Below are positions 20,366 to 60,418 of a stretch of 64,000 bases of DNA, piece after piece. The translations under genes were made by a program, and so were the position numbers. Each line of letters begins with the position of its first letter. The stretch's first letter is position 1. This DNA comes from an uncultured Nitrospira sp. Lineage in GTDB: Bacteria; Nitrospirota; Nitrospiria; Nitrospirales; Nitrospiraceae. A model generated the notes under the pieces. It did not search any database and was not told the DNA's origin. It worked only from the letters and a program-made list of their open reading frames with translations. Location of the stretch: contig CABVSR010000012.1 of the NCBI GenBank assembly GCA_902500995.1, forward strand, positions 1-64,000. Direction: 5' to 3'.

Positions 20366-20369
20366 CGCG

Positions 20370-21518: not shown

Positions 21519-21522
21519 GGGG

Positions 21523-23262
<1,740 letters not shown>

Positions 23263-25371: not shown

Positions 25372-25401
25372 TTGACTTGATGAAAAATTGCCTGCTATGG
25401 T
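25372..25401 (+). promoter_or_regulatory. Candidate sigma-70 promoter of folD
   Basis: TTGACT (25372-25377), an 18-base spacer, and TATGGT (25396-25401), 42 bases before the folD GTG. It lies in the 270-base divergent region between the propeller gene and folD. Confidence 0.55.
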
Positions 25402-25442
25402 GCCGACACTTTTTGCTTCTCTTCAAGGCCAGGGAGGATATT

Positions 25443-26303
25443 GTGGCTGCACGGATTATTGATGGAAAGGCATTGGCACAGCAGGTCCGGGAAGGGCTGG
25501 CTGTGGAGTCGGCTGCGGTGCTCGCCAAAACAGGCACCAAACCGGGACTGGCGACCATTTTAGTGGGGGACGATCCTGCCTCGCACGTCTACGTCAAAAA
25601 TAAACAAAAGGCCTGCGAACTGGCAGGCATCTACGTTGACGATCACAAGCTGCCGGCCAGTACGACGCAGGCCGAGCTGCTGGCGTTGATCGAAAAGAAA
25701 AATGCCGACCCGAAGATTCACGGCATTTTGGTCCAGCTGCCGCTGCCCAAGCACATCGAGAGCCGTGTCGTCCTGGAAGCGGTGTCGCCGAACAAGGATG
25801 CCGACGGGTTTCACCCCTACAATTTCGGCCGGCTGGTCGAGGGCAATCCGGTCTTCGAAGCCTGTACGCCGAAGGGGGTCATCAAGATGATCGAATCGGC
25901 CGGCGTCTCCATCGAAGGCAAACGCGCCGTGGTGGTCGGGCGTAGCAATATCGTGGGCAAACCGCTGGCGTTGATGTTGCTCCAGCGCAATGCCACCGTC
26001 ACGATCTGCCACTCAAAGACGAAGGATCTTGCCGCGGTCTGCCGGGAGGCCGATATCCTGCTGGTGGCGATCGGGAAGGCGAAGTTCGTGACCGCCGATA
26101 TGGTGCGGGACGGCGCCGTCGTGATCGACGTGGGCACCAACAAGGGGCCGGACGGCAAGCTCTGCGGCGATGTCGATTATGAACCGGTGAGCCAAAAGGC
26201 CGGGTGGATCAGTCCCGTGCCGGGCGGGGTCGGGCCGATGACGATTGCGATGTTACTCGACAATACCGTTGAATCTGCTAAGAGAATGGCAGGGATGAAA
26301 TAG
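25443..26303 (+). CDS. folD: Bifunctional methylene-THF dehydrogenase/methenyl-THF cyclohydrolase
   Basis: Interconverts 5,10-methylene-, methenyl- and 10-formyl-THF using NADP. 286 residues from the GTG at 25443, which has AGGGAGGA upstream. The longer in-frame reading would add 38 foreign residues. The catalytic Lys lies in YVKNKQKACE, with the signatures GILVQLPLPKHI and PCTPKGV-like ACTPKGVIKMIE, and the NADP motif VVVGRSNIVGKPLA. The C-terminus VPGGVGPMTIAMLLDNT is typical. First of three one-carbon genes. Confidence 0.97.
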   Translation: MAARIIDGKALAQQVREGLAVESAAVLAKTGTKPGLATILVGDDPASHVYVKNKQKACELAGIYVDDHKLPASTTQAELLALIEKKNADPKIHGILVQLPLPKHIESRVVLEAVSPNKDADGFHPYNFGRLVEGNPVFEACTPKGVIKMIESAGVSIEGKRAVVVGRSNIVGKPLALMLLQRNATVTICHSKTKDLAAVCREADILLVAIGKAKFVTADMVRDGAVVIDVGTNKGPDGKLCGDVDYEPVSQKAGWISPVPGGVGPMTIAMLLDNTVESAKRMAGMK

Positions 26304-26607
26304 GGGCGACCGGGACAACCCCGTTGCTCGCAGACCGCGCACGATCAGAATGTGCTCGATCGATGCGCGCAGGCGGGATGTCCCGCCCGCCCTATTTCCG
26401 GTAAGGTGGAGAAGGGCGGGAAGAAAAGCTGGCAGACAATCAAGCATCAGGGATGAAGTAGTCGCGGTCAGGCCACCGACTCCTCCTGCTCGCGCGACGC
26501 GCGGCCTCGGAAGGCCCTCGTCGGACGCGCGCAATGAGGAATCAATGCCCCGTCCGCTCCGACAAGGGCAGGGGGCAGAACAGGTTCGAAATGGATAGGA
26601 GACTCGT
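26304..26607. repeat. Intergenic region with palindromic, possibly dispersed repeat sequence
   Basis: This ~300-base gap between folD and metF contains several inverted repeats: GGCGGGA-TG-TCCCGCC and a GGCC-TCGGAA-GGCC core at about 26503-26514 flanked by CGCGCG-rich partial arms. No ORF is convincing. The texture resembles REP-like or decayed repeat DNA rather than a promoter region, but repetition elsewhere in the genome cannot be seen from one window. Confidence 0.4.
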
Positions 26608-27498
26608 ATGAGCCGGGAGCCACGGCGACTCAAGGATGTATTGGCGCAGGGGCAGTTTGCCGTCACGGTGGAATATAACCCGCCCAAGGGCACGAACCTC
26701 ACCCATGTGGTCGAGAGCGCGAAGTCGCTGGTCGGCCGGGTCCATGGAGTCAATGTCACCGACAATACCGCGGCGATCGTGCGGGCCGGCTCACTGCCGG
26801 TCTGCCGCGTCTTGTATGAACTGGGCCATGATCCGGTCATGCAGTTGACCTGCCGGGACCGCAATCGCATCGCGATGCAGTCGGATCTCATGGGGGCGCA
26901 CATCCTCGGCATTCGCAACATCCTGTGTCTGACCGGTGACTACCCCACTGTGGGTGACCACAAGGACGCAAAGCCGGTGTATGACCTGGATTCCGTGCAA
27001 GTCATGCAGTTGGTGACCGGCTTGAATAACGGCAAGGACTATGCGGGCAACAAGTTGGATGGTCCTACCGATTTTACGATCGGCGGCGCGGTCACGCCGG
27101 AAGCCGACCCGCTTGGGCCGATGCTGGTGAAATTCGAGGTCAAGGTGCGAGCCGGCGCCGAGTTTTTCCAAACCCAGGCGATCTACCAGCCGGAGCAGTT
27201 CAAGAAATTCATGGAGGCCGTGCGCCCCTTCAAGGTGAAGGTGCTCGCGGGCATCCTCTTGTTGCGCAATGCCAAGATGGCTGAATTCATGAACGCCAAC
27301 ATCCCCGGCGTCTGCGTCCCCCAGGACATGATCGACGAAATGCGCGCCGCCGGCGATAAGCGGGCGCTGGACGCAGGCGTGGAGATCGCGGTGCGGACGA
27401 TCAAGGCGGTGCGGCCCTACTGCGACGGGGTGCACATCATGGCCATCAAATCCACGGAACGGCTGCCCGAAATTCTGACGAAAGCCGAGCTCGGCTGA
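26608..27498 (+). CDS. metF: Methylenetetrahydrofolate reductase
   Basis: Reduces 5,10-methylene-THF to 5-methyl-THF, supplying methionine synthesis. It is a 296-residue TIM-barrel flavoenzyme with VTVEYNPPKGTN near the start, LTCRDRNRIAMQSDL, ILCLTGDYP, FTIGGAVTPEADP, FFQTQAIYQPEQF and GVHIMAIKSTERLPEIL. ATG follows AGGAGA. The stop overlaps the panB ATG by one base. It lacks the fused C-terminal Cys domain found in some MTHFRs; a stand-alone copy of that domain lies at 39297-39545. Confidence 0.93.
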   Translation: MSREPRRLKDVLAQGQFAVTVEYNPPKGTNLTHVVESAKSLVGRVHGVNVTDNTAAIVRAGSLPVCRVLYELGHDPVMQLTCRDRNRIAMQSDLMGAHILGIRNILCLTGDYPTVGDHKDAKPVYDLDSVQVMQLVTGLNNGKDYAGNKLDGPTDFTIGGAVTPEADPLGPMLVKFEVKVRAGAEFFQTQAIYQPEQFKKFMEAVRPFKVKVLAGILLLRNAKMAEFMNANIPGVCVPQDMIDEMRAAGDKRALDAGVEIAVRTIKAVRPYCDGVHIMAIKSTERLPEILTKAELG

Positions 27499-28286
27499 TG
27501 ACCGTTCCGGACTTGCAGAAGTGCAAGCGCGATGGGCGCAAGATTGCGGTGGTCACGGCCTATGATGCGTTGTTCGCGCGTATCGTCGAACAGGCGGGGA
27601 TCGACGTCATTCTGGTGGGCGATTCGCTGGGCGTGGTCGTGCAAGGGAAACCCAATACGCTTTCGGTGACGATGGAGGAGATGCTGTACCACACCAGGCT
27701 CGTCGCAGGAGCCGCCCAGCGCTCCTTGGTCATCGGCGACATGCCGTTCCTTTCCTATCAAGTCAACCGTGAAGAAGCGGTTCGAAACGCAGGGCGGTTC
27801 CTTCAAGCCGGAGCCCACGCCGTGAAGCTGGAAGGGGGCGCGGCGGTGGCTGATCGAGTGGAGGCGATGGCGAACGCCGGCATTCCGGTCATCGGGCATC
27901 TCGGCATGACACCTCAATCGGTCCAGCTCTACGGCGGGTATCGGGTGCAGGGGAAAGGCAAAGACCGCGCGCAGCAAGTACTCGAGGATGCTCGCGCCTT
28001 GCAGGCCGCCGGGGCTGCCGCTCTCGTCCTGGAGGCGATTCCCGCGGGATTGGCGAAGGCAGTCACCGAGGCCATGACTATTCCGACCATCGGCATTGGA
28101 GCGGGACCACATTGCGACGGGCAAGTGCTGGTGCTCTACGACCTTCTGGGGTTGTTCGACGAGTTCGTGCCCAAGTTTGTCAAACCCTACGGGCATCTCA
28201 AGGGCGATGCCCTGCAGGCTCTCTGCCGGTACAAGGATGAGGTCGAGAAAGGCCTCTTTCCCTCCGATTCAGAAAGCTACCATTAG
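27498..28286 (+). CDS. panB: 3-methyl-2-oxobutanoate hydroxymethyltransferase
   Basis: First step of pantothenate synthesis: transfers a hydroxymethyl group from 5,10-methylene-THF to 2-oxoisovalerate. 262 residues. VVTAYDALFARIVEQAGIDVILVGDSLG binds the metal (Asp), and VKLEGG supplies Lys and Glu. GHLGMTPQSVQLYGGYRVQGK and IGIGAGPHCDGQVLVLYDLLG are family blocks. It is coupled to metF by a 1-base overlap; FolD, MetF and PanB share the methylene-THF pool. Confidence 0.96.
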   Translation: MTVPDLQKCKRDGRKIAVVTAYDALFARIVEQAGIDVILVGDSLGVVVQGKPNTLSVTMEEMLYHTRLVAGAAQRSLVIGDMPFLSYQVNREEAVRNAGRFLQAGAHAVKLEGGAAVADRVEAMANAGIPVIGHLGMTPQSVQLYGGYRVQGKGKDRAQQVLEDARALQAAGAAALVLEAIPAGLAKAVTEAMTIPTIGIGAGPHCDGQVLVLYDLLGLFDEFVPKFVKPYGHLKGDALQALCRYKDEVEKGLFPSDSESYH

Positions 28287-28316
28287 ACGGGTCGAGAAGC
28301 GCTCGGCGATCAGCAT

Positions 28317-28850
28317 TCACCGTCCGTGAGTCGCCTCTTGGGCTCCCTGCCATTCCAGCCGGATTCGGACAGCCGGCCGCTGCTCGATCAGCCAGTGCGT
28401 GAGATCTTCGGCGAACGTGGCGATGTGCATGCCCATGTAGTGAACGGGCGTTTGCCGCAGGCGGGCGAGGCCGCTCGCAACAAGTTTATGGGCCGCCGGC
28501 TCATCGCCGAGTTCGCGTTTGAGATGCGCGGCGGCGCATTGTATGAGCGCTTGGAAGAAGTTTCCTGCCGTCGTTCCGCGCCCGTAGGCATGCCAGAAGC
28601 CCTCGAATATTTCATGCGCTTCCCACCAATAGGCCGAGTTGTAGAGATCGATGCCGTATAGATAGTCTTCCGAGGTCATCCATCGTTCAGGCTCGAACGG
28701 CTGCGGCCGAGGTTCAGGTTGTTCGAACGAGTGGCCCTGTGGATGGCGGCGAGGATGCGGAGATCGGCCGGGAAGGAAACGGTACGCGGGAAAAGTCCTG
28801 TCCGTGTACCGTGGCGGATCGACGCCGGCCTGAACGTCACCTTGCTCCAT
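28317..28850 (-). CDS. DUF309 family protein
   Basis: The core (about residues 60-150) carries the DUF309 signature: YLYGIDLYNSAYWWEAHEIFEGFWHAYG, then a helix LIQCAAAHLKRE and another LVASGLARL. The first ~55 residues are Pro/Arg/His-rich and look disordered, so the true start could be internal. Its biochemical function is unknown in all organisms I know of. The gene overlaps the 3' end of apaH by 14 bases. Confidence 0.82.
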   Translation of the reverse strand: MEQGDVQAGVDPPRYTDRTFPAYRFLPGRSPHPRRHPQGHSFEQPEPRPQPFEPERWMTSEDYLYGIDLYNSAYWWEAHEIFEGFWHAYGRGTTAGNFFQALIQCAAAHLKRELGDEPAAHKLVASGLARLRQTPVHYMGMHIATFAEDLTHWLIEQRPAVRIRLEWQGAQEATHGR

Positions 28851-29655
28851 GAGTCTCCGCGCAAGGGACCTGAAACAGTTTCCGATCCTCCAGGCGTACC
28901 GCCGTCAGTTGTCTCCCGTACACGCAGCCGCTATCCAGTGCCAAGAGGTTCGGCGCGAGCTTTAACCCCATCGCCGCCCAGTGTCCGAAGACGATCGTCG
29001 CCGCTGAATTCCGCCGGCCGGGTACGTCGAACCAGGGATGAAAGCCATCGGGGGCCTGATCCGGCGGGCCTGAAAAGGACGATTCCATGACGCCTTTGTC
29101 TGAGCAGGTTCTCAACCGGGTCAGCACCTTGATGATAGTCGCCAGGCGAATCGGGCCGGTGAGATCGGGGCGCCATTGCAACGGGCCGTTGGGGTGGAGC
29201 GCGCGCAGAGTTTTCACATACTCGTCCCCCCGTATCGCCGTCTGGGCTTCCCCGGCGAGGTCCTCAGCCTGTTCCACCGACCAGCCGGGAAGAAGTCCCG
29301 CATGGACCAGCAGGTAGACACCCTCCCGATAGAGCAGCGGTTGCTGCCGTAGCCACAGCATCAGTTCGCGGGAATCCGGCGCCTCAAGCACCGGCGTGAG
29401 GGTGTCACTGGGACGAAGAGCCGTCAGCCCGGCGGCCACGGCGAGAAGGAAGAGGTCGTGGTTGCCGAGGACCGCCACGGCGGCGGAGCCGAGGTCACGA
29501 ATATATCGCAGCACCTTGAGGGAGTCGGGGCCGCGATTGACGAGATCGCCGACAAACCAGAGGCGGTCCCGCTTGGGATTGAATTGGATGGCGTTCGTCA
29601 GTTGCGTGAGGGAGGTGAAGCAGCCTTGGATGTCGCCGATTGCGTAGGTGGCCAT
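28837..29655 (-). CDS. apaH: Symmetrical bis(5'-nucleosyl)-tetraphosphatase
   Basis: Cleaves Ap4A into two ADP, limiting alarmone-like dinucleotides and Np4 RNA caps. Metallophosphatase motifs are YAIGDIQGC (start), FVGDLVNRGPDS, VLGNHDLFLLAVAAG, and later LLVHAGLLPGW and FGHWAAMGL. 272 residues, the usual length. It is followed by the overlapping DUF309 gene. Confidence 0.95.
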   Translation of the reverse strand: MATYAIGDIQGCFTSLTQLTNAIQFNPKRDRLWFVGDLVNRGPDSLKVLRYIRDLGSAAVAVLGNHDLFLLAVAAGLTALRPSDTLTPVLEAPDSRELMLWLRQQPLLYREGVYLLVHAGLLPGWSVEQAEDLAGEAQTAIRGDEYVKTLRALHPNGPLQWRPDLTGPIRLATIIKVLTRLRTCSDKGVMESSFSGPPDQAPDGFHPWFDVPGRRNSAATIVFGHWAAMGLKLAPNLLALDSGCVYGRQLTAVRLEDRKLFQVPCAETHGAR

Positions 29656-29717
29656 GGGTGGCCAAGACTAGCGCGGCCAGGCCTTCTTCGCAAGTCAGGA
29701 GGGATGCGGGAGAAGGT

Positions 29718-32690
29718 TTATGCGCCCCCGCGCTCGCGGAGCTCGCCGGTCATCGTGGCGCAGGCTGTTTGATGGGCATCCGTCAACTGAGCGAGCAGGG
29801 CGGCAGCACCGTCAAGGCGGGCGAGGCGTCCGAGCTGCTCCAATTCTTTGCAATGGGCCGCGGTAGCCAAGGCTCCCAGTTGCGCGCTGCTGGATTTTAA
29901 TCGATGGGCCGCCTTGGCGAGGGTGTCCGCATCCTGCGTTTCCACAGCGTTGCGAATCTCCTCGACGAGGTTCCGCGAATCGTTCAGATAGGCCGTCAGC
30001 ACTTTCGCCAGGATATCGGGGCGCCCCGGCCGTTGAAGCGCCACAATTGCATTCCAGGCTGTCTTGTCGATCTCGACAGAACTGGGAGGCGGTGGCTGAT
30101 CAGGCGGCGCGTCGGCGGGCCTGGCCGGAGGAGCGGCGACGGGCTCCGCCATTTCAGGAGCCGTCTGAGGTTTCAGCCATCGAGTCAGAATCTTGCGAAG
30201 TTGTGCCAGGGTAAAGGGTTTCGCCAGGTAATCGTCCATGCCGGCGGCGAGGCAGCGAGCGCGATCACCTTCCATGGCGTTGGCTGTGAGGGCGATGATG
30301 GGGACGTGAGGGTGGTCCGGTGCGGTCCGTTCCTGTTGCCGAATCGTGGCGGTGGCGGAGAAACCGTCCATCTCCGGCATCTGGCAATCCATCAGAATGA
30401 GGTCGAACCGTTCCCGTGCGGCCGCCTCGACGGCGAGCCGCCCGTTTTCGACCGCGTTCACTGAATGTCCCAGAATCTCTAACATCCCGCTGGCCACGTC
30501 GCGGTTGACCGGCGTGTCTTCGACGAGGAGCAGACGAACGTTCCGGAGGCCTGCCGTCACCGGTTCCGGGTTGACCGGATCAAGGCGGGGAGTGGGGGGC
30601 CGATGTCCTGTCCGGAGCAACCCGAGGACCGCCTGTTGCAACAAGGTTTTCCGGACCGGTTTGGTGACCCAGCCATCGACGGCCGGTACTCCGGCCGCCC
30701 CGGAGTCGTACCCGACCGACGTCAGCATCAGCAGGGGCAGAGCGGCCAACTGTGGGTCAGCCCGGATCGCATGCGCCAGTTGCATACCGTCCATGTCCGG
30801 CATCTGAAAATCCAAAATGGCCAATTCAAACGGCTGTTGCGCGGCAGCCTGTCGAAGTTGCGCGAGCGCCTCGCCGGCGGATGCAGTCAGCACGGGGATC
30901 GCTCCCCACGAGCGCAGATGATCATCCAGAATCTCACGATTGGCAGCGGTATCATCCACGACCAGAATCCGCCGTTGGAGCAGGGCATGTTTCGGCTGTT
31001 GGTCTTGGGCGGCCGGTGGTTGTCGCTCAAATACGGCGGTAAACCAAAAGGTTGAGCCTTGGCCCACGCGACTTTCCACGCCGATCTGCCCCTGCATGAG
31101 TGCGACCAGTTCCTTCACGATCGTGAGGCCGAGCCCTGTTCCCCCGAACCGCCGGGTCGTCGTGCCATCGACTTGCGAGAAGGCTTCGAAGATGCGCTGA
31201 TGGGCCTCGGCGGGAATGCCGACGCCGGAATCTTGTACCGCGAATCGGAGGGTGACGGTGGCGTCCGACTCGGTCACCAGGTCGATACGGACATTGATTT
31301 CCCCGCTTGCGGTGAACTTCAGCGCATTGCTGATGAGGTTCAGCAGCGCCTGGCGAAGCCGGATCGGGTCGCCGCGCAGGGTTCGCGGAATTGAGTTCGG
31401 CATGTGGCAGGTGAGCTCCAGCCCTTTGCGTTGGGCGGGGGTGGCAAAAAGTTCCACGGCGTTGTCGACCGTGTCCTGCAGATCGAAGTCCAGCCGCTCC
31501 AGCTGGAGTTTGCCCGCTTCAATCTTGGAGAAGTCGAGAATGTCGTTGATGATGGCCAGAAGGGCTTCGCCGGAATGTTGAATGGTCCGCCCCAAGTGGC
31601 GCTGCCGGGTGTCGAGCGCGGTCGTGAGCAAGAGCTCGGTCATGCCTAAAATGCCGTTCATCGGCGTCCGAATCTCATGGCTCATGTTGGCCAGAAATTG
31701 CGACTTGGTGCGGCTGGCTGCTTCCGCGGCCTCCTTCGCCAACAGCAGTTCCTGCGCGGTGCGTTTGAGCGGGGTGATGTCGGAGGCGACGGCGAGGTAG
31801 CCGGTGATCTTGCCGTCCGGGTCCCGTAGCGCCGTGATATTGAGCAGAACCGTTCTCCTGGTGCCGTCTTTCCGGATGTAGGTCCACTCATGCTCGTTGG
31901 GCAGATTGCGCCGGGATTTTTCGATGAAGACGTCAAACCCCGGCTCGATGGTCGTGCCGAATTGCTCAGAGAGTTGTCTGGCCCGCTCCACAATTTCCTC
32001 GGGAACGTGAAAGATGCCTGGATGCTGGCGGCCGACCAGTTCGTCGGCGCTGTAGCCCAGCAGGACTTCCGCCGCCGGATTAAACAGTTGAATGATGCCG
32101 TCGGGGCGGCAGGAAATAATGGCATTGCCGGCACTGTCCAGGATGGCCCGCTGAAACGTGGCGTACGAGCGTAGCTCGGTTTCGGCCCGGCGCTGTTCGG
32201 TAATGTCGCGGACAGTCGCCTGCAGCCCTTCGACGCCTTGGAGGGTGATGCGGGTCAATTGCACCGATGCGAGAAAGGTCGATCCTCCGACTCGTTTGTG
32301 CATCCATTCAAACAGGTGAAAGCCTTCCCGCATGGCCGACTCGATCGCCTTTGGCGCCTTGACCATCGACAATTCACCGTCCGGCTGATACTCGGGGGAC
32401 ACATCTCCTGGACCGAGGGACGTGAAGTGCGCCTCGTCGCGGGCTCCGAACAGCGCGACGGTGGCAGGATTACAGGCGATGAAATTCCACTGGGGTGGAT
32501 ACAAGATCATGATGGCGTCGCGCGACGATTCGAAGAGGCGCCGGTATTTTTCTTCGCTCTCGCGCACGCTCGATTCGTACTGCTGCGGCGCGATGGTCTG
32601 CCCGGCACCCTGGCCGACCTGGATCGGTTCGTGCGGTTCGCTCGGCCGCGCAAGGGGCAGCAGGTGTTGAAGAAGCCGGCGGAGTGTCAC
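29718..32690 (-). CDS. Hybrid histidine kinase (PAS-PAS-HisKA-HATPase-REC-REC-HPt)
   Basis: 990 residues, no membrane segment. PAS1 about 45-165 (FESSRDAIMI), PAS2 about 175-310 (closing VASDITPLKR), HisKA about 330-395 ([13 protein letters not shown]), HATPase_c 440-555 (DSGVGIP, GGTGLGLTIVKEL). Receiver 1 is at 575-690 (AILDFQMPDMDG) and receiver 2 at 715-835 (LMDCQMPEMDG). HPt is at 885-980 ([12 protein letters not shown]). It starts at GTG, 13 bases after the stop of the membrane hybrid kinase gene, so the two are probably cotranscribed. PAS2 suits a cofactor or redox signal, but the ligand is unknown. Confidence 0.94.
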   Translation of the reverse strand: MTLRRLLQHLLPLARPSEPHEPIQVGQGAGQTIAPQQYESSVRESEEKYRRLFESSRDAIMILYPPQWNFIACNPATVALFGARDEAHFTSLGPGDVSPEYQPDGELSMVKAPKAIESAMREGFHLFEWMHKRVGGSTFLASVQLTRITLQGVEGLQATVRDITEQRRAETELRSYATFQRAILDSAGNAIISCRPDGIIQLFNPAAEVLLGYSADELVGRQHPGIFHVPEEIVERARQLSEQFGTTIEPGFDVFIEKSRRNLPNEHEWTYIRKDGTRRTVLLNITALRDPDGKITGYLAVASDITPLKRTAQELLLAKEAAEAASRTKSQFLANMSHEIRTPMNGILGMTELLLTTALDTRQRHLGRTIQHSGEALLAIINDILDFSKIEAGKLQLERLDFDLQDTVDNAVELFATPAQRKGLELTCHMPNSIPRTLRGDPIRLRQALLNLISNALKFTASGEINVRIDLVTESDATVTLRFAVQDSGVGIPAEAHQRIFEAFSQVDGTTTRRFGGTGLGLTIVKELVALMQGQIGVESRVGQGSTFWFTAVFERQPPAAQDQQPKHALLQRRILVVDDTAANREILDDHLRSWGAIPVLTASAGEALAQLRQAAAQQPFELAILDFQMPDMDGMQLAHAIRADPQLAALPLLMLTSVGYDSGAAGVPAVDGWVTKPVRKTLLQQAVLGLLRTGHRPPTPRLDPVNPEPVTAGLRNVRLLLVEDTPVNRDVASGMLEILGHSVNAVENGRLAVEAAARERFDLILMDCQMPEMDGFSATATIRQQERTAPDHPHVPIIALTANAMEGDRARCLAAGMDDYLAKPFTLAQLRKILTRWLKPQTAPEMAEPVAAPPARPADAPPDQPPPPSSVEIDKTAWNAIVALQRPGRPDILAKVLTAYLNDSRNLVEEIRNAVETQDADTLAKAAHRLKSSSAQLGALATAAHCKELEQLGRLARLDGAAALLAQLTDAHQTACATMTGELRERGGA

Positions 32691-32703
32691 GATCTACGCC
32701 CCC

Positions 32704-35643
32704 TCATGCTGCGGGCCTTTCTGCTCGGTCGATTTCTTCCTGCATCAGGGCACAGACTGTGTGGTGTTCGGGACGCAAGCGTTGAAGAAGCTTCGGGATG
32801 TCACCGGTCTTACCGGTGCATCCCGCCGCTTCTATGTTTGCATACAGGCCCGCGAGGCGGTGTGCCCCGAGCTGTGCCGAGGAGGACTTCAGCGTATGCG
32901 CGACGGTCGTGATGGCCCGGACATCGCCGCTGATGACGTGTTGCTCGAGCTGAGTCAGCTGGGCCTCGGCGTGGGGAATGTAGAGGGACAGCGCCTTGAG
33001 TAAGAAGTCCGGCCGTCCCGGTCTCTGGCGTGCACGGATGGCAGCCCATGCGGTGAGGTCCAGGTGATCGGCGGTGTCTTCCGGTGGCGGGGCAACAGGG
33101 ACCGCCGCCGCTACGGGGATGTCGAGCCCCGGTTGCTGCGACGGGGGCGGAGGCGCAGTTGAGACGGCTACAGGTCTGGTGGGAAGCCACCGCTGGAGCG
33201 TGGTTTTGAGCTGATTCAACGTGAACGGCTTCGTCAGATAGTCGTCCATGCCCGCGTCGAGACACCGTTGGCGGTCCCCTTCCAGTGCATTGGCCGTGAG
33301 GGCGACAACGGTGGTGTGGCGCGGCTGCTCCCGCTGGCCCTCATGCCTGCGGATCGCTTCCGTAGCGGTCAAGCCATCCATCTCCGGCATGTGGCAATCC
33401 ATGAGGATCAGATCAAACGTACCAGTTTCGACGGCGGCTACGGCTTCCCGGCCGTTCTCCGCCACGGCGGTGGTACAGCCGAGGAGTTCCAGCATGGTGC
33501 AGGCCACCTCGCGATTGACGGGGTTGTCTTCCGCCAGCAGGACATGGCCGGTGAACGTCTCCGTCTGATCCGGTGGTTGGACCAGGGCAGGCAGCGCGTC
33601 TTCCTGAGCATTCCGGCAGAGACGTGTCAGACAGTCCTTCAGCAGCGATTGGTGGACCGGTTTCCTCAACCAGGCATTGAACAGTGCCGGAGACAGACGA
33701 GGATCTTGATCCGGTTGTCCGACGGAGCTCAAGGCCACCAGCAGCAGATCAGGAAGTCCCGCGGAGCTCCTGATGGCCCGGGCGAGATCGATGCCATCCA
33801 TCTCGGGCATGTGAATATCCAGTACGGCCAGTCTCACCGGGGGATGAGACGCCTTCTGTTCGCCGAGGAACTCTAAGGCTTCACGCGCGGAGGTTGCGGA
33901 ATGCACCGAGGCATTCCAGCTGGTCAGGTGCGCCTCGAGAATTTGTCGATTGGTAGGGTTATCGTCCACGACCAGGACGGATAGCCCCGCTAGCGAGGCC
34001 GGGGGCTGCCGATCCGTCGCCGCGCTTGTCCCTACGGCGGTCCCCAGCGCCGCGGTGAACCAAAAGGTTGATCCTTGGCCCGGAATGCTGTCGACGCCCA
34101 CCTCGCCGCCCATCAAGTGTGCCAGTTGTTTGACGATTGCCAGGCCGAGTCCGGTGCCGCCGAACTGTCTGGTGGTGGAGCCGTCTGCCTGGGAAAACGC
34201 CTGAAAGAGTCGAGCTCGGGCAGTTTCGGAGATGCCGATGCCGGTGTCACGGACAGAACATTTCAGCATCATGCTATCGGACTGTTGGCTCAGGAGCGCG
34301 AGGGAGACCGAGACCTCACCGGCCTGGGTAAATTTGATGGCATTGCCGATGAGGTTCAGCACGATCTGCCGAAGTCGTACCGGGTCTCCGATGACGGCAT
34401 CCGGAATCTCCTCCGGCACAAAGCAGGTCAGTTCCAGGTGCTTGCGATTCGCCGACTCTGCCAGGAGGTCGACGGCATCCTCGAGGGTCTGTCTCAAGCC
34501 GAATTCAATCCGCTCAAGATGCAGTTTCCCGGCTTCGATCTTGGAGAAATCCAGAATCTCATTGATGATGTCCAGGAGGCCGGTGCCCGAGCGATGAAGG
34601 GTTTCGGCGAGGGACCGCTGTTTGGGGGTCAACGCGGTCGTGAGCAGCAATTCCGCCATTCCGAGCACGCCATTCATGGGGGTGCGGATCTCGTGGCTCA
34701 TATTCGCGAGGAATTGAGATTTCGCCCGACTGGCCGTCTCGGCTGCCTCCTTGGCCTGGTGAAGTTCCGCGGTTCGCTCCCGTACGGCATTTTCCAGGGA
34801 GTGTGTGAATGATTGAAGCCGTTGTGCTTGCGTGGTGAGAAGCGCCGTCGTGGTTTCGACGAGCGACACCATCTGTTCGAGTTCCCCCTGGTAGGATGTG
34901 GTCTGGTCCGGGTCGGATAGATACGATTGCTCATGCAGGAGCTGTTGCTCATCGGCAGGGTTGTGGAGCGTTTCAAGCGTGTTCTGCAGTGTCTGAGCCG
35001 TGTCTCGAAAGAGCGCGGACATGCGGCGGATTCCCGCCTGGCCGACAAGAATCGCCAATGCCATCAGCAATGCGGAAAGCATGAGCAACCGACGGAACTC
35101 GCGTGCGACCTCCTGCTTCATGGCTGCGAGCGAGAACTCCAGTCGAACCCAGGCTGCGACAGTCTGGTCGTCCATCAGCGGCGTGGCGACCACCAGGGTC
35201 GGTGTTCCATCCGGCTGCAACTCGCGGGCGATGGTTTGGGTTCCTGTGGCGCGAGCTTGCAAGAGAGTGGAATCTGCAAGTTGGCGCCCGATCTGGTCGG
35301 GATCGGTGGCGGCGACAATCATCGTGTCGGGATCGACGACGACGATGCTGACAATGTCGGTGTCGCGGGCAAAACGCGCCAGGGCTTCTTGAATGCGGAA
35401 CAGATTGTCAAGAACGGCCGCGGCTCCCATCATGGTGAAGGTACGACTGACGGCCAGCGCCCGGGCTTGGGCGGCGTCCTCGACAGAGTGGCGGATCTCG
35501 ACCAGGCGGAAGGTCGCGAAGGTCGTCATGCCGAGCGCAATCATCACGCTCATCCCCACGCTGAGACGGAGGCGGAGACTGCCTTGCCATACGGCCCAGG
35601 GCCGGCTGAGCCAATGCCCCTTATGGTTTCCTTGCGGCAGCAT
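32704..35643 (-). CDS. Membrane hybrid histidine kinase with periplasmic sensor (REC-REC-HPt)
   Basis: 979 residues. TM1 about 26-48, a periplasmic Cache/PDC-like sensor 50-185 (contains [22 protein letters not shown]), TM2 188-208, a long coiled coil to about 320, HisKA ([13 protein letters not shown]), HATPase_c ([19 protein letters not shown]), receiver 1 (565-685, [11 protein letters not shown]), receiver 2 (705-825, [11 protein letters not shown]) and HPt (880-975, [12 protein letters not shown]). Its first 23 bases overlap the end of the cupredoxin-like gene. It is thus translationally tied to the cytochrome/copper cluster upstream and may sense a condition related to it (inference). 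Confidence 0.94.
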
Positions 35644-48138: not shown

Positions 48139-49338
48139 ATGGCGAAAGTGCTGGAAGGTCCCGGGATGGGGCTGATGAAGAAGTGGGGAATCAACGTCCC
48201 TAACTACGTGGTTGTCACGTCAGTTGATGAGCTGACCAAACTGGGGCAAGCCAACGAATGGTTGAAAAAGTCCAAGCTTGTCGCCAAAGCGCATGAAGCG
48301 TTGGGCTCGCGCTTTAAATTGGGGTTGGTCAAGGTGGATTTAGACTTCAAAGCTGCGGAAGCCGCCACCAAGGAGATGATCGGCCGGCAAGTCGGCAGCA
48401 TCACGGTGACGCAGGTCATCGTCTCTGAAATGATCCCGCATAAGGAAGAATATTATTGTGCAGTAAAATCAACCCGCGAAGGCACTGAGATCCTGGTGGC
48501 CAATTGTGGCGGGATCGAAGTGGAATCAAACTGGGAACGTGTGAAACGTTTGTGCCTCGAAATTGGGCAATCCCCTTCCCCGGAATCCCTCGAAAAACTG
48601 AGTAAAGAAGCAGGTTTCTCCGGCGCGCTGGCCAAAAAAATGGCGGAATTCGCCGGGAAAATGTTTGCCTGCTTTGACAGCGAAGACGCGCAGTACCTCG
48701 AAGTCAATCCAGTGGTTTTACGAGCCGGCGATGACGAATTGGTTGCGCTCGATGCGGTCACCCTTCTCGATGGTGATGCCAAGTTCAGGCACCCCGATTG
48801 GAACTTTGCCTTTGCTGCGGAATTCGGCCGGGCCTATTCCAAGCAAGAGCTTGAGGTCATGGCGGTTGATAGCAAGATCAAGGGCTCAGTCAAATTCATT
48901 GAAATCCCTGGGGGGGATACGGCTATGTTGCCTGCCGGCGGTGGCGCCAGCGTCTATTATTCGGATGCCGTGGTCGCTCGTGGCGGCAAGTTGGCGAACT
49001 ATGCGGAGTATTCTGGGGATCCACCCGATTGGGCGGTCGAAGTGCTCACCGAGAAGGTTTGCTCACTTCCCGGGATCAGAAACATCATCGTCGGTGGTGC
49101 CATCGCGAATTTTACCGATGTGAAAAAGACGTTTGGCGGCATTATCAATGGGTTCCGGAAAGCCAAATCAGAAGGCAAACTGAAGAATGTGAAGATATGG
49201 GTGCGTCGTGGCGGTCCGCGTGAAAAAGAAGGCCTTGATGCGATGCGTGCGTTAAAAGACGAGGGTTTTGATATCAACGTCTTCGACCGCAATACCCCGC
49301 TTACCGATATTGTCGACAAGGCACTTCAAGCAAAGTAG
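48139..49338 (+). CDS. aclB: ATP-citrate lyase, small subunit (succinyl-CoA-synthetase-beta-like)
   Basis: With AclA cleaves citrate to acetyl-CoA and oxaloacetate using ATP and CoA, the key step of the reductive TCA cycle. 399 residues, the same size as green-sulfur-bacterial AclB. ATP-grasp-like N-half (LVAKAHEALGSRFKLGLVKVDLD, YCAVKSTREGTEILVANCGGIEVES, YLEVNPVVL). C-half is CoA-ligase-like (EIPGGDTAMLPAGGGASVYYSDAVV, NIIVGGAIANFTDVKKTFGGIINGFRKA). AAGGAG precedes the ATG. aclA follows after 42 bases. Confidence 0.93.
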   Translation: MAKVLEGPGMGLMKKWGINVPNYVVVTSVDELTKLGQANEWLKKSKLVAKAHEALGSRFKLGLVKVDLDFKAAEAATKEMIGRQVGSITVTQVIVSEMIPHKEEYYCAVKSTREGTEILVANCGGIEVESNWERVKRLCLEIGQSPSPESLEKLSKEAGFSGALAKKMAEFAGKMFACFDSEDAQYLEVNPVVLRAGDDELVALDAVTLLDGDAKFRHPDWNFAFAAEFGRAYSKQELEVMAVDSKIKGSVKFIEIPGGDTAMLPAGGGASVYYSDAVVARGGKLANYAEYSGDPPDWAVEVLTEKVCSLPGIRNIIVGGAIANFTDVKKTFGGIINGFRKAKSEGKLKNVKIWVRRGGPREKEGLDAMRALKDEGFDINVFDRNTPLTDIVDKALQAK

Positions 49339-49380: not shown

Positions 49381-51201
49381 ATGAGTATTCTGGCAAACAA
49401 AGACACCCGGGTCGTGATCCAGGGTGGTCAAGCCGGTGTCAACGCCGCCCGCCGTATGGCCGAATTCTGTTATCTCATCAAGCGTCCGCTGAATGTCGAA
49501 GCATTTGTTTACCCGCCGGACGCCGGTAAGACCAATGAGATCCCGTATGGCAGCGGCCTCCTCGCTATTCCTGTCTACAAGTCTATCGCTGAAGCGACAA
49601 AGAATCATCCTACGCTCAATACCAGTCTTGTTTACATTGGCGCGGATCGGGCGATGAAGGGCGGAATGGAAGCGCTCGATGATCCGCATATCAAAGTGGT
49701 CTCGATGATCACCGAGGGTGTGCCGGAGAAGGATGCCAAGATTCTCGGCGCCCATGCCCGCAAGTTGGGCAAGGTGTTTAACGGCCCCTCTTCCATCGGC
49801 ATCATTTCAGCTGGTGCCTGTCGCCTTGGAGTAATCGGGGGCGCATTCGACAATTTGGTCCTTTCCAAGCTGTATCGGGAAGGCTCATTTGGCGTCATCA
49901 CGAAGTCCGGTGGCCTCTCGAACGAAATTATTTGGATCTGTTCACAATTTGCCGACGGTATCACAACGGCCATCGGGATTGGCGGCGACGCCTATCCTGG
50001 CACGGATTACGTGAGCTATCTGGAAATGTTCGAAAACGATCCGCAGACAAAAGCCGTTGTAATTGTCGGCGAAATGGGTGGCGATCTGGAAGAGCGTGCG
50101 GCTGAATGGTACGGAGCGAAGAAGCGGCGAGTGAAACTGATCGCCGTGGTATCCGGATTCTGTCAGGAAAGTTTGCCGAAAGGCATGAAATTCGGTCATG
50201 CCGGCGCCAAGGAGGGCATGAAAGGCGAAGGATCGGCCCGGTCGAAATCCGATGCCCTCAAGAAAGCAGGGGCATTGGTGCCTCCGACCTTCGGTGCACT
50301 GGGTCCGGCTATTAAGGAAACCTATGAGGACTTGCTGAAATCCGGTCAAGTCAAGGCGCCGGTTGAGCCGGCCGTGCTACCGCGCCTACCGAAGACGGTT
50401 GAGGAGGCAATGAAAGCCGATGAGGTCATGGTTGCCCCTCTCATTCGCACCACCATTAGTGACGACCGTGGTGACGAACCCTGCTACGACGGATATCCCG
50501 CCTCTGAACTCATCAACAAAGGCTACGAAATTCCTCACGTCATCGGCCTTCTGTGGGATAAACGATTAATCTCCAAACAGGAAGCTGAAATTATCAAGCG
50601 CATCATGATGCTCTCTGCGGATCATGGTCCTTGTGTGAGTGGGGCCTATGCGACGATCTTGGCGGCCTGTGCCGGCATCGGGTTGTCCCAGTCGGTGGCA
50701 GCGGGAATGATCATGATCGGCCCGCGTTTCGGTGGAGCGGTGACGGATGCGGGGCGATTCTTCAAGTATGCCGTCGATAACAAGATGTCAGTCGACGAAT
50801 TTTTGGCCTACATGAAGAAAAATCATGGGCCTGTGCCGGGTATTGGCCATCGTGTCAAGAGCCTGCGCAATCCTGACAAGCGGGTCAAGGAGTTGGTCGG
50901 CTACGTCAAGAGCCTCAAGGTCAAGACTCCGTGCCTGGACTTTGCACTGGAAGTGGAAAAAGTCACATCGGTGAAGAAGGACAATTTGATCTTGAATGTC
51001 GACGGGACCATGGCGGCTGTCTTAGTCGACATCGGATTCCCCATCGATAGTTTGAATGGGTTCTTCATCCTTTCGCGCACGATTGGATTGATCGGGCATT
51101 GGGTAGATCAGAAGCGCCAGGATAGCCGTTTGATTCGATTGTTTGATTATCTCGTGAACTATGCAGCGCCTAAGCGTCGGGAAGTGCCGCCGCTGAAGTA
51201 A
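49381..51201 (+). CDS. aclA: ATP-citrate lyase, large subunit
   Basis: 606 residues. The N-half is succinyl-CoA-synthetase-alpha-like, with the phospho-His expected in KFGHAGAKEGMKGEG (about residue 274) and GGLSNEIIWICSQFADGITTAIGIGGDAYPGTDY. The C-terminal ~260 residues are citrate-synthase-like (LSADHGPCVSGAYATILAACAGIGLSQSVAAG, PVPGIGHRVKSLRNPDKRV). The split aclB-aclA pair is diagnostic for rTCA autotrophs such as Chlorobi, Aquificales and Nitrospira. A GGGGAGA site precedes ATG. Confidence 0.95.
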   Translation: MSILANKDTRVVIQGGQAGVNAARRMAEFCYLIKRPLNVEAFVYPPDAGKTNEIPYGSGLLAIPVYKSIAEATKNHPTLNTSLVYIGADRAMKGGMEALDDPHIKVVSMITEGVPEKDAKILGAHARKLGKVFNGPSSIGIISAGACRLGVIGGAFDNLVLSKLYREGSFGVITKSGGLSNEIIWICSQFADGITTAIGIGGDAYPGTDYVSYLEMFENDPQTKAVVIVGEMGGDLEERAAEWYGAKKRRVKLIAVVSGFCQESLPKGMKFGHAGAKEGMKGEGSARSKSDALKKAGALVPPTFGALGPAIKETYEDLLKSGQVKAPVEPAVLPRLPKTVEEAMKADEVMVAPLIRTTISDDRGDEPCYDGYPASELINKGYEIPHVIGLLWDKRLISKQEAEIIKRIMMLSADHGPCVSGAYATILAACAGIGLSQSVAAGMIMIGPRFGGAVTDAGRFFKYAVDNKMSVDEFLAYMKKNHGPVPGIGHRVKSLRNPDKRVKELVGYVKSLKVKTPCLDFALEVEKVTSVKKDNLILNVDGTMAAVLVDIGFPIDSLNGFFILSRTIGLIGHWVDQKRQDSRLIRLFDYLVNYAAPKRREVPPLK

Positions 51202-51308: not shown

Positions 51309-55806
<4,498 letters not shown>

Positions 55807-55891: not shown

Positions 55892-56602
55892 ATGGCACAA
55901 GAAGACACCAATGTAATTGACCAGCCGGAAGTCGTGCGCCACAAGATGGTCACCATCGAAATTTCCGGCAAAAAGTACGAAGTGCCGGAAGGCATCACCG
56001 TGATCAAAGCCCTGTGGCACACGGGGCAGGAGGTGGTGCGAGGTGCCGGGTGTCTGGGAGGCTTCTGTGGCGCTTGTGCGACATATTACCGCACAAAGGA
56101 CGATCCGAAGGTTCGAACCTGTTTGGCCTGTCAAATGGCTGTTGAAGACGGCATGTCCTTTACCATCATGCCTCCGTTTCCAGCGCGCAAAGCGCTCTAC
56201 GACATCCGATCGCTCAAGGATCCGAAGCAGGATCTCTTCAATCTGTACCCCGAGGCGCCCCTCTGTAGAAACTGCAACGCTTGCACGGAGGCCTGTCCGC
56301 AGAAAATTGATGTGCGCGAAGGCGTCTGGAAAGCTGTATTTGGTGACTTCAAAAGCGTTTCTGAAATGTTTATGGACTGTGTCATGTGCGGGATGTGTAC
56401 ACCCGTCTGTATCGCCGACATCGCTCCAAACTTGGTGGCCCTGTATGTCAGCCGAGCTCAGGGCGCTCATTTCACCGAGAAGCCACAAGGCCTTGATACC
56501 CGTATTAAGGAAATTCAGGACGGTCGCTTCAACGACGAATGGAAGAAAGTGCTCGCCATGAGCGAACAGGAGTTAGCCGATCACTGTGCGACAGTCAAGT
56601 AA
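55892..56602 (+). CDS. frdB: Fumarate reductase/succinate dehydrogenase iron-sulfur subunit
   Basis: 236 residues from ATG 55892 (GAGAG upstream). The first Cys set, GCLGGFCGACATYYR with RTCLACQ, binds [2Fe-2S] as in plant-type ferredoxin domains. CRNCNACTEACPQ and CVMCGMCTPVCI provide two further cubane sites. It transfers electrons to FrdA. No membrane-anchor gene follows, so a soluble or ferredoxin/NADH-linked complex is suggested, as in Hydrogenobacter-type rTCA fumarate reductase. The gene starts right after the icd terminator. Confidence 0.85.
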   Translation: MAQEDTNVIDQPEVVRHKMVTIEISGKKYEVPEGITVIKALWHTGQEVVRGAGCLGGFCGACATYYRTKDDPKVRTCLACQMAVEDGMSFTIMPPFPARKALYDIRSLKDPKQDLFNLYPEAPLCRNCNACTEACPQKIDVREGVWKAVFGDFKSVSEMFMDCVMCGMCTPVCIADIAPNLVALYVSRAQGAHFTEKPQGLDTRIKEIQDGRFNDEWKKVLAMSEQELADHCATVK

Positions 56603-56670
56603 CGCGCTGTGCCGCCAGCCGGTTCTGAGCGCATGGCTCGGGTACTGTGCTCCGCGCTGAAAGTGAAACC

Positions 56671-58272
56671 ATGGAAATTCATGCACTCCAGCAGATTGTT
56701 CACCAAACCCGAGACGCTCGTCGCAAGCAGACTATTCCTAAGTTTTCCCCTGCCGACCGCGACCGATTAATTCATCAGTATCATCCGGACTATCGATCCA
56801 GCGCGTATCGTCCGATTCGATTCGGACCGAATGCCGGAGATAAAACCGTTGTTGAACTGGCCGCGTTGCTTGAAGGGGACAGCTCAATCCAGGAGCATAT
56901 CGATTTGACCCCTCAGTACACCACGGACGTGTTGGTGGTGGGCGGTGGTGGTGCCGGATGTGCTGCGGCGCTTCACGCTCATGCGACGGGTGCGAAGGTT
57001 ATCCTTGCCACAAAACTTCGTCTTGGCGACTCCAATAGCGTGATGGCTCAGGGCGGCATGCAAATCTCCGTTGCGCCCGAGGACTCTCCGGTTACCCATT
57101 TCCTTGATACGCTCAAGGGTGGGCATATGCAAAATGATCATGAGCTCCTCAAGGTCATGGTCGAAGAAGGGCCGTCCATCGCAAAATGGCTGATTGAGCT
57201 GGGAGTACTTTTTGACCGGCAAGCCGACGGTAATTTGCATGTAAAAAAAGGTGGGGGAAGCTCGAAGCCCCGTCTGCTCACATGCTCGGACTATACCGGC
57301 CTCGAGATCATGCGGGTGCTCAAGGATGAGGTGCTCAACCAGAAGATTCAGCTTCTTGAGTTCTGTGCCGCCGTCGAATTATTGAGTGACGAGAACGGCC
57401 AGTGTACCGGTGCGATTTTTAAGGATCTGGATAACCACCGCCATGTCGTGGTCGCCGCGAAGTCGGTCATTCTCGCCACCGGCGGTATCGGCCGGTTGCA
57501 TATCCAGGGATTCCCTACCAGCAATCACTACGGCGCGACGGGGGATGGTTTGTGCCTCTCGTACCGAATGGGTGCAAAACTCGACCATATCGATACCTTT
57601 CAATACCACCCCTCAGGCGCGGTTTATCCGGAGCAATTGATCGGGGCGTTGGTGACGGAAGGGATCCGGTCGGAGGGTGGTCATCTCGTGAACGCCAAGG
57701 GGGAACGGTTTGTGAACGAGCTGGATACTCGAGATGTGGTCTCGTCCTCCATCATTCGCGAATGCGAAGAAGGCCGCGGTATTCGGACCATGTCCGGCCG
57801 GGTCGGCGTGTGGTTGGATACACCCTTGCTGGACGCAGAACATGGACCAGGAACGGTGGAGAAGCATTTCCCTGCCATGATGATGCAATTTGAACGGTTC
57901 GGTATCGATATTAGTAAGGACCCTGTACTCATCTACCCCACCTTGCACTATCAGAACGGCGGGGTGAAGATCGATGCAAATTCCGAAACCAACGTGAAGA
58001 ATTTGTTTGTTGCAGGAGAAGCCTCCGGAGGGTTGCACGGCCGAAACCGGTTGATGGGCAATTCGTTGCTGGATTTAATGGTTTTCGGTAAGCGGTCAGG
58101 ATTAACGGCCGCATCGCGTGCCGGGTCCGCGTCACAGGGAAAACTCACGGTGAATCATTTGCAGCGGTTCCGGGCTGACGCGAAAAAGCACGGCAATTCC
58201 AGCGGGGTAATTTCTCCCATGATCCTTCCCGCGTATACGCGTAGAGAAGCGGAACGGACTGTTACCAACTGA
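56671..58272 (+). CDS. frdA: Fumarate reductase/succinate dehydrogenase flavoprotein subunit
   Basis: 533 residues from ATG 56671. FAD-binding VLVVGGGGAGCAAALHAHATGAKV; the SAQGG-type motif reads DSNSVMAQGGMQ, where the usual FAD-linking His is Asn (bases 57034-57036). The active-site region is DTFQYHPSGAVYPEQLIGALVTEGIRSEGGHLVN, then FVNELDTRDVVSSSI. The end LFVAGEASGGLHGRNRLMGNSLLDLMVFG is typical. About 70 extra N-terminal residues precede the flavin domain. FAD is therefore probably non-covalent. Coupled by position to frdB and sucCD. Confidence 0.9.
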   Translation: MEIHALQQIVHQTRDARRKQTIPKFSPADRDRLIHQYHPDYRSSAYRPIRFGPNAGDKTVVELAALLEGDSSIQEHIDLTPQYTTDVLVVGGGGAGCAAALHAHATGAKVILATKLRLGDSNSVMAQGGMQISVAPEDSPVTHFLDTLKGGHMQNDHELLKVMVEEGPSIAKWLIELGVLFDRQADGNLHVKKGGGSSKPRLLTCSDYTGLEIMRVLKDEVLNQKIQLLEFCAAVELLSDENGQCTGAIFKDLDNHRHVVVAAKSVILATGGIGRLHIQGFPTSNHYGATGDGLCLSYRMGAKLDHIDTFQYHPSGAVYPEQLIGALVTEGIRSEGGHLVNAKGERFVNELDTRDVVSSSIIRECEEGRGIRTMSGRVGVWLDTPLLDAEHGPGTVEKHFPAMMMQFERFGIDISKDPVLIYPTLHYQNGGVKIDANSETNVKNLFVAGEASGGLHGRNRLMGNSLLDLMVFGKRSGLTAASRAGSASQGKLTVNHLQRFRADAKKHGNSSGVISPMILPAYTRREAERTVTN

Positions 58273-58355: not shown

Positions 58356-59534
58356 ATGAACGTTCATGAGTTCCAGGCCAAGCAGTTGTTTGCACAGTTT
58401 GGAGTTCCAGTGCCGCGTGGAAAGGAAATTACCACGCCTGAGGGCGCGACTGCCTGGGCTCATGAACTCAATACGCCGGTCTTTGTCGTAAAAGCTCAAA
58501 TTCATGCCGGAGGACGAGGCAAGGCTGGCGGTGTGAAAATCACGAAAGACAAGGGGGCCATTGCGGGCCTCGCCAAAGAATTACTCGGAAAGACCTTGAT
58601 TACGCATCAAACCGGTCCCAAAGGTAGAACGGTCCATCGGCTACTTCTTGAAGAAGGTGCCAATATTGCCAAGGAGCTGTATTTGAGCATTTTGGTGGAT
58701 CGCGATACCGGCTGGCCTACCTTTATTGCCAGTACAGAAGGGGGTATGGAGATCGAAGAGGTTGCTGAGAAAACCCCGGAGAAGATTATCAAGGAAGCGA
58801 TCGATCCTGCTGTCGGGTTTCAGGGGCATAATGGGCGGAACGTGGCCTTCGCCTTGGGACTCCAGCATATGGAGCCGGCGGTCATCAATCCGTTCGTGCA
58901 GATGCTCGGGAATCTCTATCGCCTGTTCATGGAGAAACATGCCGCGCTCGTCGAAATCAACCCGTTAATCATTACCAAAGAGAAGACGTTGGTTGCTTTG
59001 GACGGGAAAGTGTCCTTTGACGACAATGGAATGTTTAAACACGAAGACGTTCAACAAATGCGGGACCTCAATGAAGAGGATCCGCTGGAAATCGAAGCGA
59101 CGGCCAATAATCTCAACTATGTAAAGTTAGATGGCAACATCGGGTGCATGGTGAACGGCGCGGGCCTTGCGATGGCGACAATGGATGTCATCAAGCTGGC
59201 GGGCAGCGAGCCGGCTAACTTTCTGGATGTCGGCGGGGGAGCAACCAAAGACACCGTTGCGGCAGGTTTTCGGATTCTGCTCAAGGACCCGAACGTGAAG
59301 GGCATTTTCATCAACATTTTCGGCGGCATTGTTCGCTGCGAGCGTATCGCGCATGGCGTGATTGAGGCAGCCAAGGAAGTCAAGATTGCGGTGCCCTTGG
59401 TCGTTCGCCTTCAAGGCACCAATGCTGATGAGGGCCGAAAACTGCTGGCAGATTCCGGACTCAAGCTAGAGGTTGCCAATGATCTGTGGGAAGCGGCGCA
59501 GAAAATCGTCAAGCTGACCGGTAAGGCGGCGTAA
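58356..59534 (+). CDS. sucC: Succinyl-CoA synthetase, beta subunit
   Basis: Ligates succinate and CoA with ATP; in rTCA it feeds 2-oxoglutarate synthesis. 392 residues. [36 protein letters not shown] (ATP-grasp), [28 protein letters not shown] and [23 protein letters not shown] are diagnostic. AAGAGG lies before the ATG. Precedes sucD by 11 bases. Confidence 0.97.
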
Positions 59535-59545: not shown

Positions 59546-60418
59546 GTGAGTATTCTCGTCAATAAGCATACGCGAGTAGTGGTGCAGGGAATCACGGGGA
59601 AGGAAGGATCTTTCCACGCGACGCAGTGCAAAGCGTACGGCACGAAGATGGTCGCCGGTGTGACACCGGGTAAGGCCGGCCAGGAAGTCGAAGGCATACC
59701 TGTCTTTAATACGGTGGCCGATGCCGTTAAAAAGACCGACTGCGATACCTCCCTGATTTTTGTGCCGCCTCCCTTCTGCGCGGACGCCATCCTGGAGGCC
59801 GCCGATGCAGGCGTAAAATTGATTATCTGCATCACCGAAGGCATTCCGGTCAATGACATGGTGAAGGTCAAGCGAGCACTGCATGGACGGGATGTCCGGT
59901 TGATCGGTCCGAACTGCCCCGGTGTGATTACGGTCGATGAGGCGAAGATCGGCATCATGCCGGGATTCATCCACAAGCGCGGTGTTGTTGGCGTCGTGTC
60001 TCGGAGCGGCACCTTGACCTATGAGGCCGTACATCAGCTGTCCACGTTAGGACTGGGGGAGACGACTTGCGTGGGAATCGGCGGCGATCCGGTCAATGGC
60101 ACCGGCTTCGTGGATGTCTTGCCACTGTTTGAGAAAGATCCTGAAACGCAGGCTGTGGTCATGATCGGGGAAATCGGAGGCGACGCTGAGGAGAAAGCGG
60201 CCGAATACATCAAGCAACATGTGAAGAAGCCTGTGATCAGTTTTATCGCTGGAATCACGGCGCCTCCGGGCCGTCGGATGGGACATGCAGGAGCGATTAT
60301 TTCAGGCGGCAAAGGAACGGCTTCGGAGAAAATGAAGGCCCTCGAATCCGCTGGCGTTCGAGTCGTGAAGAATCCTGCTGAGATCGGTCATGCTGTGCTG
60401 AAAGCACTCGGCCGCTAG
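59546..60418 (+). CDS. sucD: Succinyl-CoA synthetase, alpha subunit
   Basis: 290 residues, GTG start with AAGGAGAAG upstream. CoA-binding [33 protein letters not shown]; active His in [18 protein letters not shown]. The N-terminus [15 protein letters not shown] is very similar to that of AclA (MSILANKDTRVVIQG), as expected from their shared ancestry. A strong terminator follows. Confidence 0.97.

Follow-up and report, generated by a model that had tools for sequence, protein, structure and literature searches.

The window analysed here, a stretch of 64,000 nucleotides from an uncultured Nitrospira sp., contains a pair of genes, frdB and frdA, that raises the question of whether their products reduce fumarate, oxidize succinate or do both, and where the electrons come from. 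The reading that we favour, and consider probable, is that FrdBA is a soluble-type fumarate reductase with non-covalently bound FAD and a bias towards reduction, which would serve the reverse TCA cycle of a Nitrospira-type bacterium and leave oxidation to a separate succinate dehydrogenase (SDH) that carries the flavin-linking His.

The surroundings of the two genes are the first indication of their role. On the plus strand, the small (48139..49338, Citrate_bind domain) and large (49381..51201) subunits of ATP-citrate lyase, aconitase (51309..53552) and a monomeric NADP isocitrate dehydrogenase (idh, 53578..55806) are followed by frdB (55892..56602), frdA (56671..58272), sucC (58356..59534) and sucD (59546..60418). 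The order aclB-aclA-acn-idh-frdB-frdA-sucC-sucD is that of a reverse TCA cluster, and this position inside the operon supports the proposal of an earlier note on this DNA that the enzyme is fit for that cycle. Succinate formed by FrdBA would pass to SucCD, which is encoded next door. On the minus strand of the window, at 16736-35640, lie genes for several large sensor histidine kinases that also contain PAS and response-regulator domains.

The frdA gene encodes a 533-aa flavoprotein that starts with ATG at 56671, the stop codon ending at 58272; a GTG at 56647, 24 bases upstream, would give an open frame of 541 aa, but only the ATG agrees with the starts of the orthologs. In DNA and translation the flavin-site motif reads TKLRLGDSNSVMAQGG, and its Asn122 (codon AAT, 57034..57036) stands in the column of the flavin-linking His, as seen from the DNA, the alignment and the orthologs. 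Aligned with MAFFT, Asn122 falls opposite His45 of E. coli SdhA, His45 of E. coli FrdA (numbered with Met) and Ser45 of E. coli NadB. Since this alignment has no gap near the motif, no other His of FrdA takes the flavin-linking column. The earlier note had reported Asn in place of the FAD-linking His ahead of AQGG and had proposed alignment with canonical SdhA as a check; the substitution holds at this column, and an alternative His was not found there.

The catalytic set is kept: H313, T329, E330, R354, H426 and R460 of FrdA align with SdhA H242, T254, E255, R286, H354 and R399, to which, as to SdhA Phe119 and NadB Glu121, we assign the catalytic roles usually assumed for them. At the column of Phe119 and Glu121 FrdA has Gly194, and thus its substrate pocket is unlike that of either enzyme. 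Arg346, considered as the catalytic arginine, which would then be lost in L064, L069, L071, L072 and L074, was rejected because the alignment places the invariant Arg354 opposite SdhA R286. Ahead of the FAD-binding domain lie about 80 extra N-terminal residues (56671..56910) that are specific to the family and are recognized in the alignment and the structure model. They include the invariant P39, D40 and G52 and are modelled with high confidence. The usual C-terminal domain is missing from the protein.

The Asn is not peculiar to this genome. The FrdA query (P0001) matched 242 of 245 sampled Nitrospirota genomes at E 1e-30, paralogs included, and a hand count placed a member of the FrdA clade in 115 of the 245 (at least 47% identity and at least 374 bits); below these members, scores in the same search fall to 236 bits and 40% identity. 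The flavin site was read in 53 of the 115 ortholog-bearing genomes, with loci mapped to genomes by hand, and Asn was found in 71/71 orthologous loci, a count that includes repeats of one genome and, in cases of the L016 type, paralogs, and that leaves out a second, 32%-identical protein in L072. These loci were gathered by whole-protein or family searches whose queries left the flavin-site motif free. Asn is also kept in every row of a 37-row cross-phylum alignment; because one of the two peptide patterns used for gathering contains Asn, its frequency outside the Nitrospirota is biased upward, and the 71/71 count is unaffected. A 64-row tree, which carries a long-branch warning (chiefly for L072_para and Ec_NadB), groups the 47 Frd rows in a single clade (100/100) and separates them from SdhA, NadB and E. 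coli FrdA. The whole clade therefore shares the Asn, which is not the result of a recent loss. The earlier note had spoken of a protein that lacks, or has lost, its His; this wording is misleading, since the trait, judged from these sequences, is old and family-wide.

The consequence for the flavin was considered in the light of known enzymes. Excerpts of PMC9557727 state that succinate oxidation requires the covalent attachment of FAD, which raises its potential, and that soluble fumarate reductases and L-aspartate oxidases bind FAD non-covalently and only reduce fumarate. The reaction of soluble fumarate reductase is said to be irreversible in a part of PMC6242907, which also counts K66, N73 and S74 among the contacts of yeast Osm1 with FAD. 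The K66-N73-S74 spacing is the same as that of K115-N122-S123 in FrdA, and Asn at the flavin site is shared with non-covalent relatives, namely Osm1 (Asn73, by spacing) and the NadB of this genome, which reads SNSMYAQGG. In the portion of PMC2680327 on the 8-methylmenaquinol:fumarate reductase (MFR) of Wolinella succinogenes, the enzyme is without the His, its FAD is non-covalent and succinate is not oxidized; its A86H variant gains the covalent bond and not succinate oxidation, and so the His cannot be the sole determinant of direction. As far as these excerpts reach, they make it likely that the FAD of FrdA is non-covalent and probable that catalysis runs one way, a direction that the His alone would not decide. 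We propose that FAD would be held without a covalent bond because Asn122 replaces the linking His, with Asn122 and Ser123 probably hydrogen-bonding the flavin like Asn73 and Ser74 of Osm1, and that the unlinked flavin would have a lower potential, so that fumarate reduction would work and succinate oxidation would fail.

A flavin that is nevertheless covalent, either FAD linked via another residue or FMN attached by an ApbE-type enzyme, is extremely unlikely. The family does have two specific invariant histidines, His277 and His286, which could be candidates, but every ortholog read has Asn at the classic position, and we know of no published precedent for another flavin-linking residue in an FrdA-type fold. 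A GATGD stretch in FrdA was considered as a site for ApbE-type FMN and set aside, the preceding SNHY appearing to misfit the ApbE motif. A search of the genome for the Sdh5/SdhE flavinylation factor gave no match. Only 2 of 14 control genomes gave one, and archaeal flavinylation can be autocatalytic according to an excerpt of PMC9557727, so this absence is weak evidence.

With regard to family, FrdA passes PF00890 (FAD_binding_2) with 285.8 bits against a cut-off of 20.4. The Succ_DH_flav_C domain, present in all five comparison proteins (SdhA, FrdA and NadB of E. coli, and SdhA and NadB of the same genome), has no Pfam match in FrdA at E 0.001. The protein is under the curated cut-offs of all 25 NCBIfam models shown. 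The top-scoring curated model is that of TfrA (NF004900, 373.3 of 718 bits), and the scores for NadB (TIGR00551, 309.4 of 452.75), SdhA/FrdA (TIGR01812, 308.8 of 567.3), flavocytochrome c (TIGR01813, 222.9 of 285.45) and the MFR (SdhABE) of Wolinella and Campylobacter (220 of 1100) are likewise under their cut-offs. The AlphaFold2 model of FrdA has a mean pLDDT of 88.7. Among the 1000 best Foldseek chains, which were taken into the structural comparison, its top match is flavocytochrome c3 fumarate reductase (1qo8, Z 39.2, 386 aligned residues, 3.1 A), and the same set contains urocanate reductase (6t85, Z 37.5, 383 aligned, 3.1 A), E. coli FrdA (1kf6, Z 37.1, 429 aligned, 3.7 A) and yeast Osm1 (34.6, 377 aligned, 2.8 A). 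The protein would thus have the fold of the SdhA/FrdA/flavocytochrome c3 superfamily, with the fumarate-binding and proton-donating residues kept. FrdA belongs to a known kind of enzyme, in a family that none of the curated models examined names.

Each of the better known relatives resembles FrdA in part. Flavocytochrome c3 and Osm1, among its top structural matches, bind FAD non-covalently, but they receive electrons through haems or free flavin, whereas frdA is accompanied by a gene for an iron-sulfur subunit and its product is under the flavocytochrome c cut-off. E. coli SdhA and FrdA of complex II share its fold and catalytic residues; the window protein differs in its Asn for His, in having an N-terminal extension and no Succ_DH_flav_C, and in its separate clade. 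The Wolinella and Campylobacter MFR is also missing the flavin-linking His and, in the available part of PMC2680327, is non-covalent and reduces fumarate only; it has Ala where FrdA has Asn, is exported by Tat and is quinol-linked via SdhE.

NadB deserves separate consideration, as FrdA might be an L-aspartate oxidase or act on another unsaturated acid. NadB too lacks the flavin-linking His, with Ser in the E. coli protein and Asn in that of this genome, Gly194 replaces both SdhA Phe119 and NadB Glu121, and the profile scores of FrdA for NadB and SdhA are equal, both under cut-off. However, full-length FAD_binding_2 proteins number three in this genome: FrdA, an SdhA and a separate NadB, the last of which passes the NadB cut-off (555 of 453 bits). 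FrdA is also apart from NadB in the tree, does not keep Glu121, is without the C-terminal domain that NadB has, and has an iron-sulfur partner gene; frdA lies between idh/frdB and sucCD, and all fumarate-site residues are kept. We therefore regard a different substrate as very unlikely.

The partner, FrdB, is a 236-aa iron-sulfur protein identified by translation, Pfam, NCBIfam and motifs. DNA and motif comparison reveal CLGGFCGAC, part of a [2Fe-2S] motif (56051..56077), CRNCNACTEACP, the first [4Fe-4S] motif (56264..56299), and CVMCGMCTPVC, a full four-Cys motif (56378..56410), so that a [2Fe-2S] motif is combined with two full CxxCxxCxxxC motifs. In E. coli SdhB and FrdB the last motif has three Cys, the second being missing as expected of a [3Fe-4S] site; the other SdhB of the same genome has all four. 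All 110 of 110 FrdB frames have both 4Fe motifs, and 109 also have the 2Fe motif, the exception (L149) being a frame that starts at a contig edge. These motifs predict one [2Fe-2S] and two [4Fe-4S] clusters.

In methanogens, the thiol:fumarate reductase TfrAB is a soluble, two-subunit enzyme of Fe-S linked design, and the FAD of TfrA is presumably non-covalent. TfrA provides the top curated model for FrdA, but FrdA is far under its cut-off of 718, and FrdB scores 29.5 of 385 bits with the TfrB model (NF004898), of which positions 25-100 of 488 are weakly matched; a Pfam scan of the 236-aa FrdB found no CCG part, which TfrB has at its C-terminus.

The earlier note had also remarked that no anchor gene accompanies frdBA. 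This is correct, as the neighbours are idh upstream and sucC/sucD downstream, and no match to Sdh_cyt (PF01127) was found in the genome, which is 97.6% complete. An anchor could nonetheless be encoded elsewhere, making FrdBA a membrane or quinol-linked complex: the genome has a CCG protein on contig C17, similar to SdhE, that scores 228 bits with the model for the MFR anchor SdhE (cut-off 500), and the Wolinella MFR is, in the part of the literature cited above, non-covalent yet quinol-linked. We consider such an arrangement unlikely. FrdB has no [3Fe-4S] motif, and the distribution of the CCG protein follows another enzyme. Among 20 genomes examined, a class-E-like SdhA was found in 11 and a different SdhA in 9; the CCG protein accompanied the former in 11/11 and the latter in 0/9, in a comparison that ignores kinship and in which genus g2 holds both states. 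As all 20 genomes carry FrdA, while the CCG protein tracks the His-bearing SdhA, the CCG protein is not the anchor of FrdA and was rejected as a candidate. In G135 and G081 it is encoded about 1 kb from the class-E-like sdhA. The best reading is that FrdBA is probably of the soluble type, based on the absence of a found anchor and on gene context in relatives.

The SDH genes themselves are variably arranged. In the genome of the window (G000) the His-bearing SDH is scattered over contigs C1 and C17: sdhA stands alone on one contig (L011:9436-11091), and some 10 kb separate a Fer2_3-type sdhB from the gene for the CCG subunit on another (L021:6487-7461 and L021:17597-18625). In other genomes of the family a different His-bearing SDH, one that includes sdhC, takes the place of the whole class-E-like SDH. 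For the nine genomes with the other SdhA, three loci (L213, L217 and L219) were inspected for the arrangement sdhC-sdhA-sdhB, and L213 ends before sdhB; the SdhC of L217 passes TIGR02046.

The SdhA of the Nitrospira genome bears directly on direction. The genome search for a second SdhA that the earlier note had suggested turned up this separate protein, whose score of 770 bits is over the SdhA/FrdA cut-off of 567 and whose motif, SKVHPVRSHSVAAQGG, has His at the flavin position; counting this genome, 20/20 genomes examined have the His motif in their SdhA. It could be argued that FrdBA is bidirectional and serves the oxidative TCA cycle as well, since its catalytic residues are intact and sequence alone cannot give direction. 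Against this stand the missing flavin-linking His, the presence of a separate His-bearing SdhA in all 20 genomes and the published His-less enzymes, which in the excerpts available do not oxidize succinate, and we judge bidirectional use to be quite unlikely. In the preferred reading, a reduction-biased FrdBA, the oxidative direction would be assigned to the His-bearing SDH. Both the second SdhA and the co-occurrence test strengthen the functional interpretation of the earlier note, which is plausible.

Electrons would then pass from a soluble low-potential donor via the [2Fe-2S] and two [4Fe-4S] clusters of FrdB to FrdA, and not from a membrane quinol site. The neighbours of frdA in relatives were used to look for such donors, among loci that are not all independent genomes because some records overlap. 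In 64 Nitrospirota-type loci, including one (L117) labelled Nitrospinota, frdB is within 1 kb upstream of frdA in 60, sucC (at least 50% identity) is nearby in 54 and aclA (at least 60% identity) in 41. Three of the four loci without upstream frdB start at a contig end, and the fourth (L072) has frdB downstream. A second frdB is near frdA in 10/64; two tandem, diverged copies, which may be alternative ways in for electrons, precede frdA in ten loci (L061, L062, L064, L065, L067, L114, L115, L118, L120 and L121). Flx-like NAD-binding genes occur at five Nitrospirota loci: in L065, L067 and L121 they follow frdB-frdB-frdA-sucC-sucD, and in L071 and L074 Hdr-MvhD-Flx lies ahead of frdBA.

In other phyla, at least one of HdrB, MvhD and FlxA is near in 28/39 loci and all three in 18/39, with Pfam support for proteins of L134, L160 and L132. 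In genomes of anaerobes frdBA ends a cluster hdrB-hdrC-hdrA-mvhD-FlxB/C-like-FlxA-like, the order of which varies (L125, L130, L133-L135, L137, L138, L140, L141, L146-L148, L151-L153, L155, L157 and L158). Such clusters suggest a cytosolic, NAD(P)H/Hdr-linked and perhaps bifurcating fumarate reductase. Papers that treat Hdr or Flx together with fumarate reductase include PMC5861303 and PMC9430772, seen here in excerpts, and the former refers to work on Desulfovibrio alaskensis that has fumarate reduction and Hdr-Flox in its title.

The donor marker families of relatives that were sought in the Nitrospira genome (FlpD, Fer4_22 and DHODB_Fe-S) gave no match. The donor of FrdBA is therefore not one of the relatives' modules as known, and the idea of a soluble donor is left without a named partner in this genome. 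In Hydrogenobacter thermophilus, the reverse TCA cycle uses a soluble, NADH-dependent enzyme of five subunits, FrdABCDE. A subunit list for the Aquifex fumarate reductase is among the tables of PMC10052474, a source seen in part. We tentatively raise the possibility that FrdBA belongs, as catalytic module, to an undescribed family of cytosolic fumarate reductases with exchangeable soluble donor modules. In anaerobic Bacillota and some Nitrospirota the partner would be HdrABC-MvhD-Flx (NAD(P)H, possibly electron-bifurcating), in others HdrBC without the rest, at three Nitrospirota loci only Flx, encoded next to sucCD, and in Nitrospira a different donor. The fumarate step of the reverse TCA cycle would then be one-way and insulated from the quinone pool, and oxidation would be carried out by a separate, replaceable His-bearing SDH.

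A transcriptome of N. moscoviensis, as excerpted from PMC6606698, describes NITMOv2_0695, a flavoprotein gene that stands alone, is highly expressed and is annotated as SdhA or NadB, and a complex II cluster expressed below the median. NITMOv2_0695 could be an FrdA of the present kind or a lone SdhA. Annotation confuses reduction-only with reversible enzymes, and Asn versus His at the flavin site is offered as a genomic marker for telling them apart. With a His-less FrdA beside sucCD and a His-bearing SdhA in 20/20 genomes, each direction of the reaction has a clear candidate. The identity of the fumarate reductase in the Nitrospira reverse TCA cycle and of its donor matters for how much energy these major nitrifiers spend on CO2 fixation.
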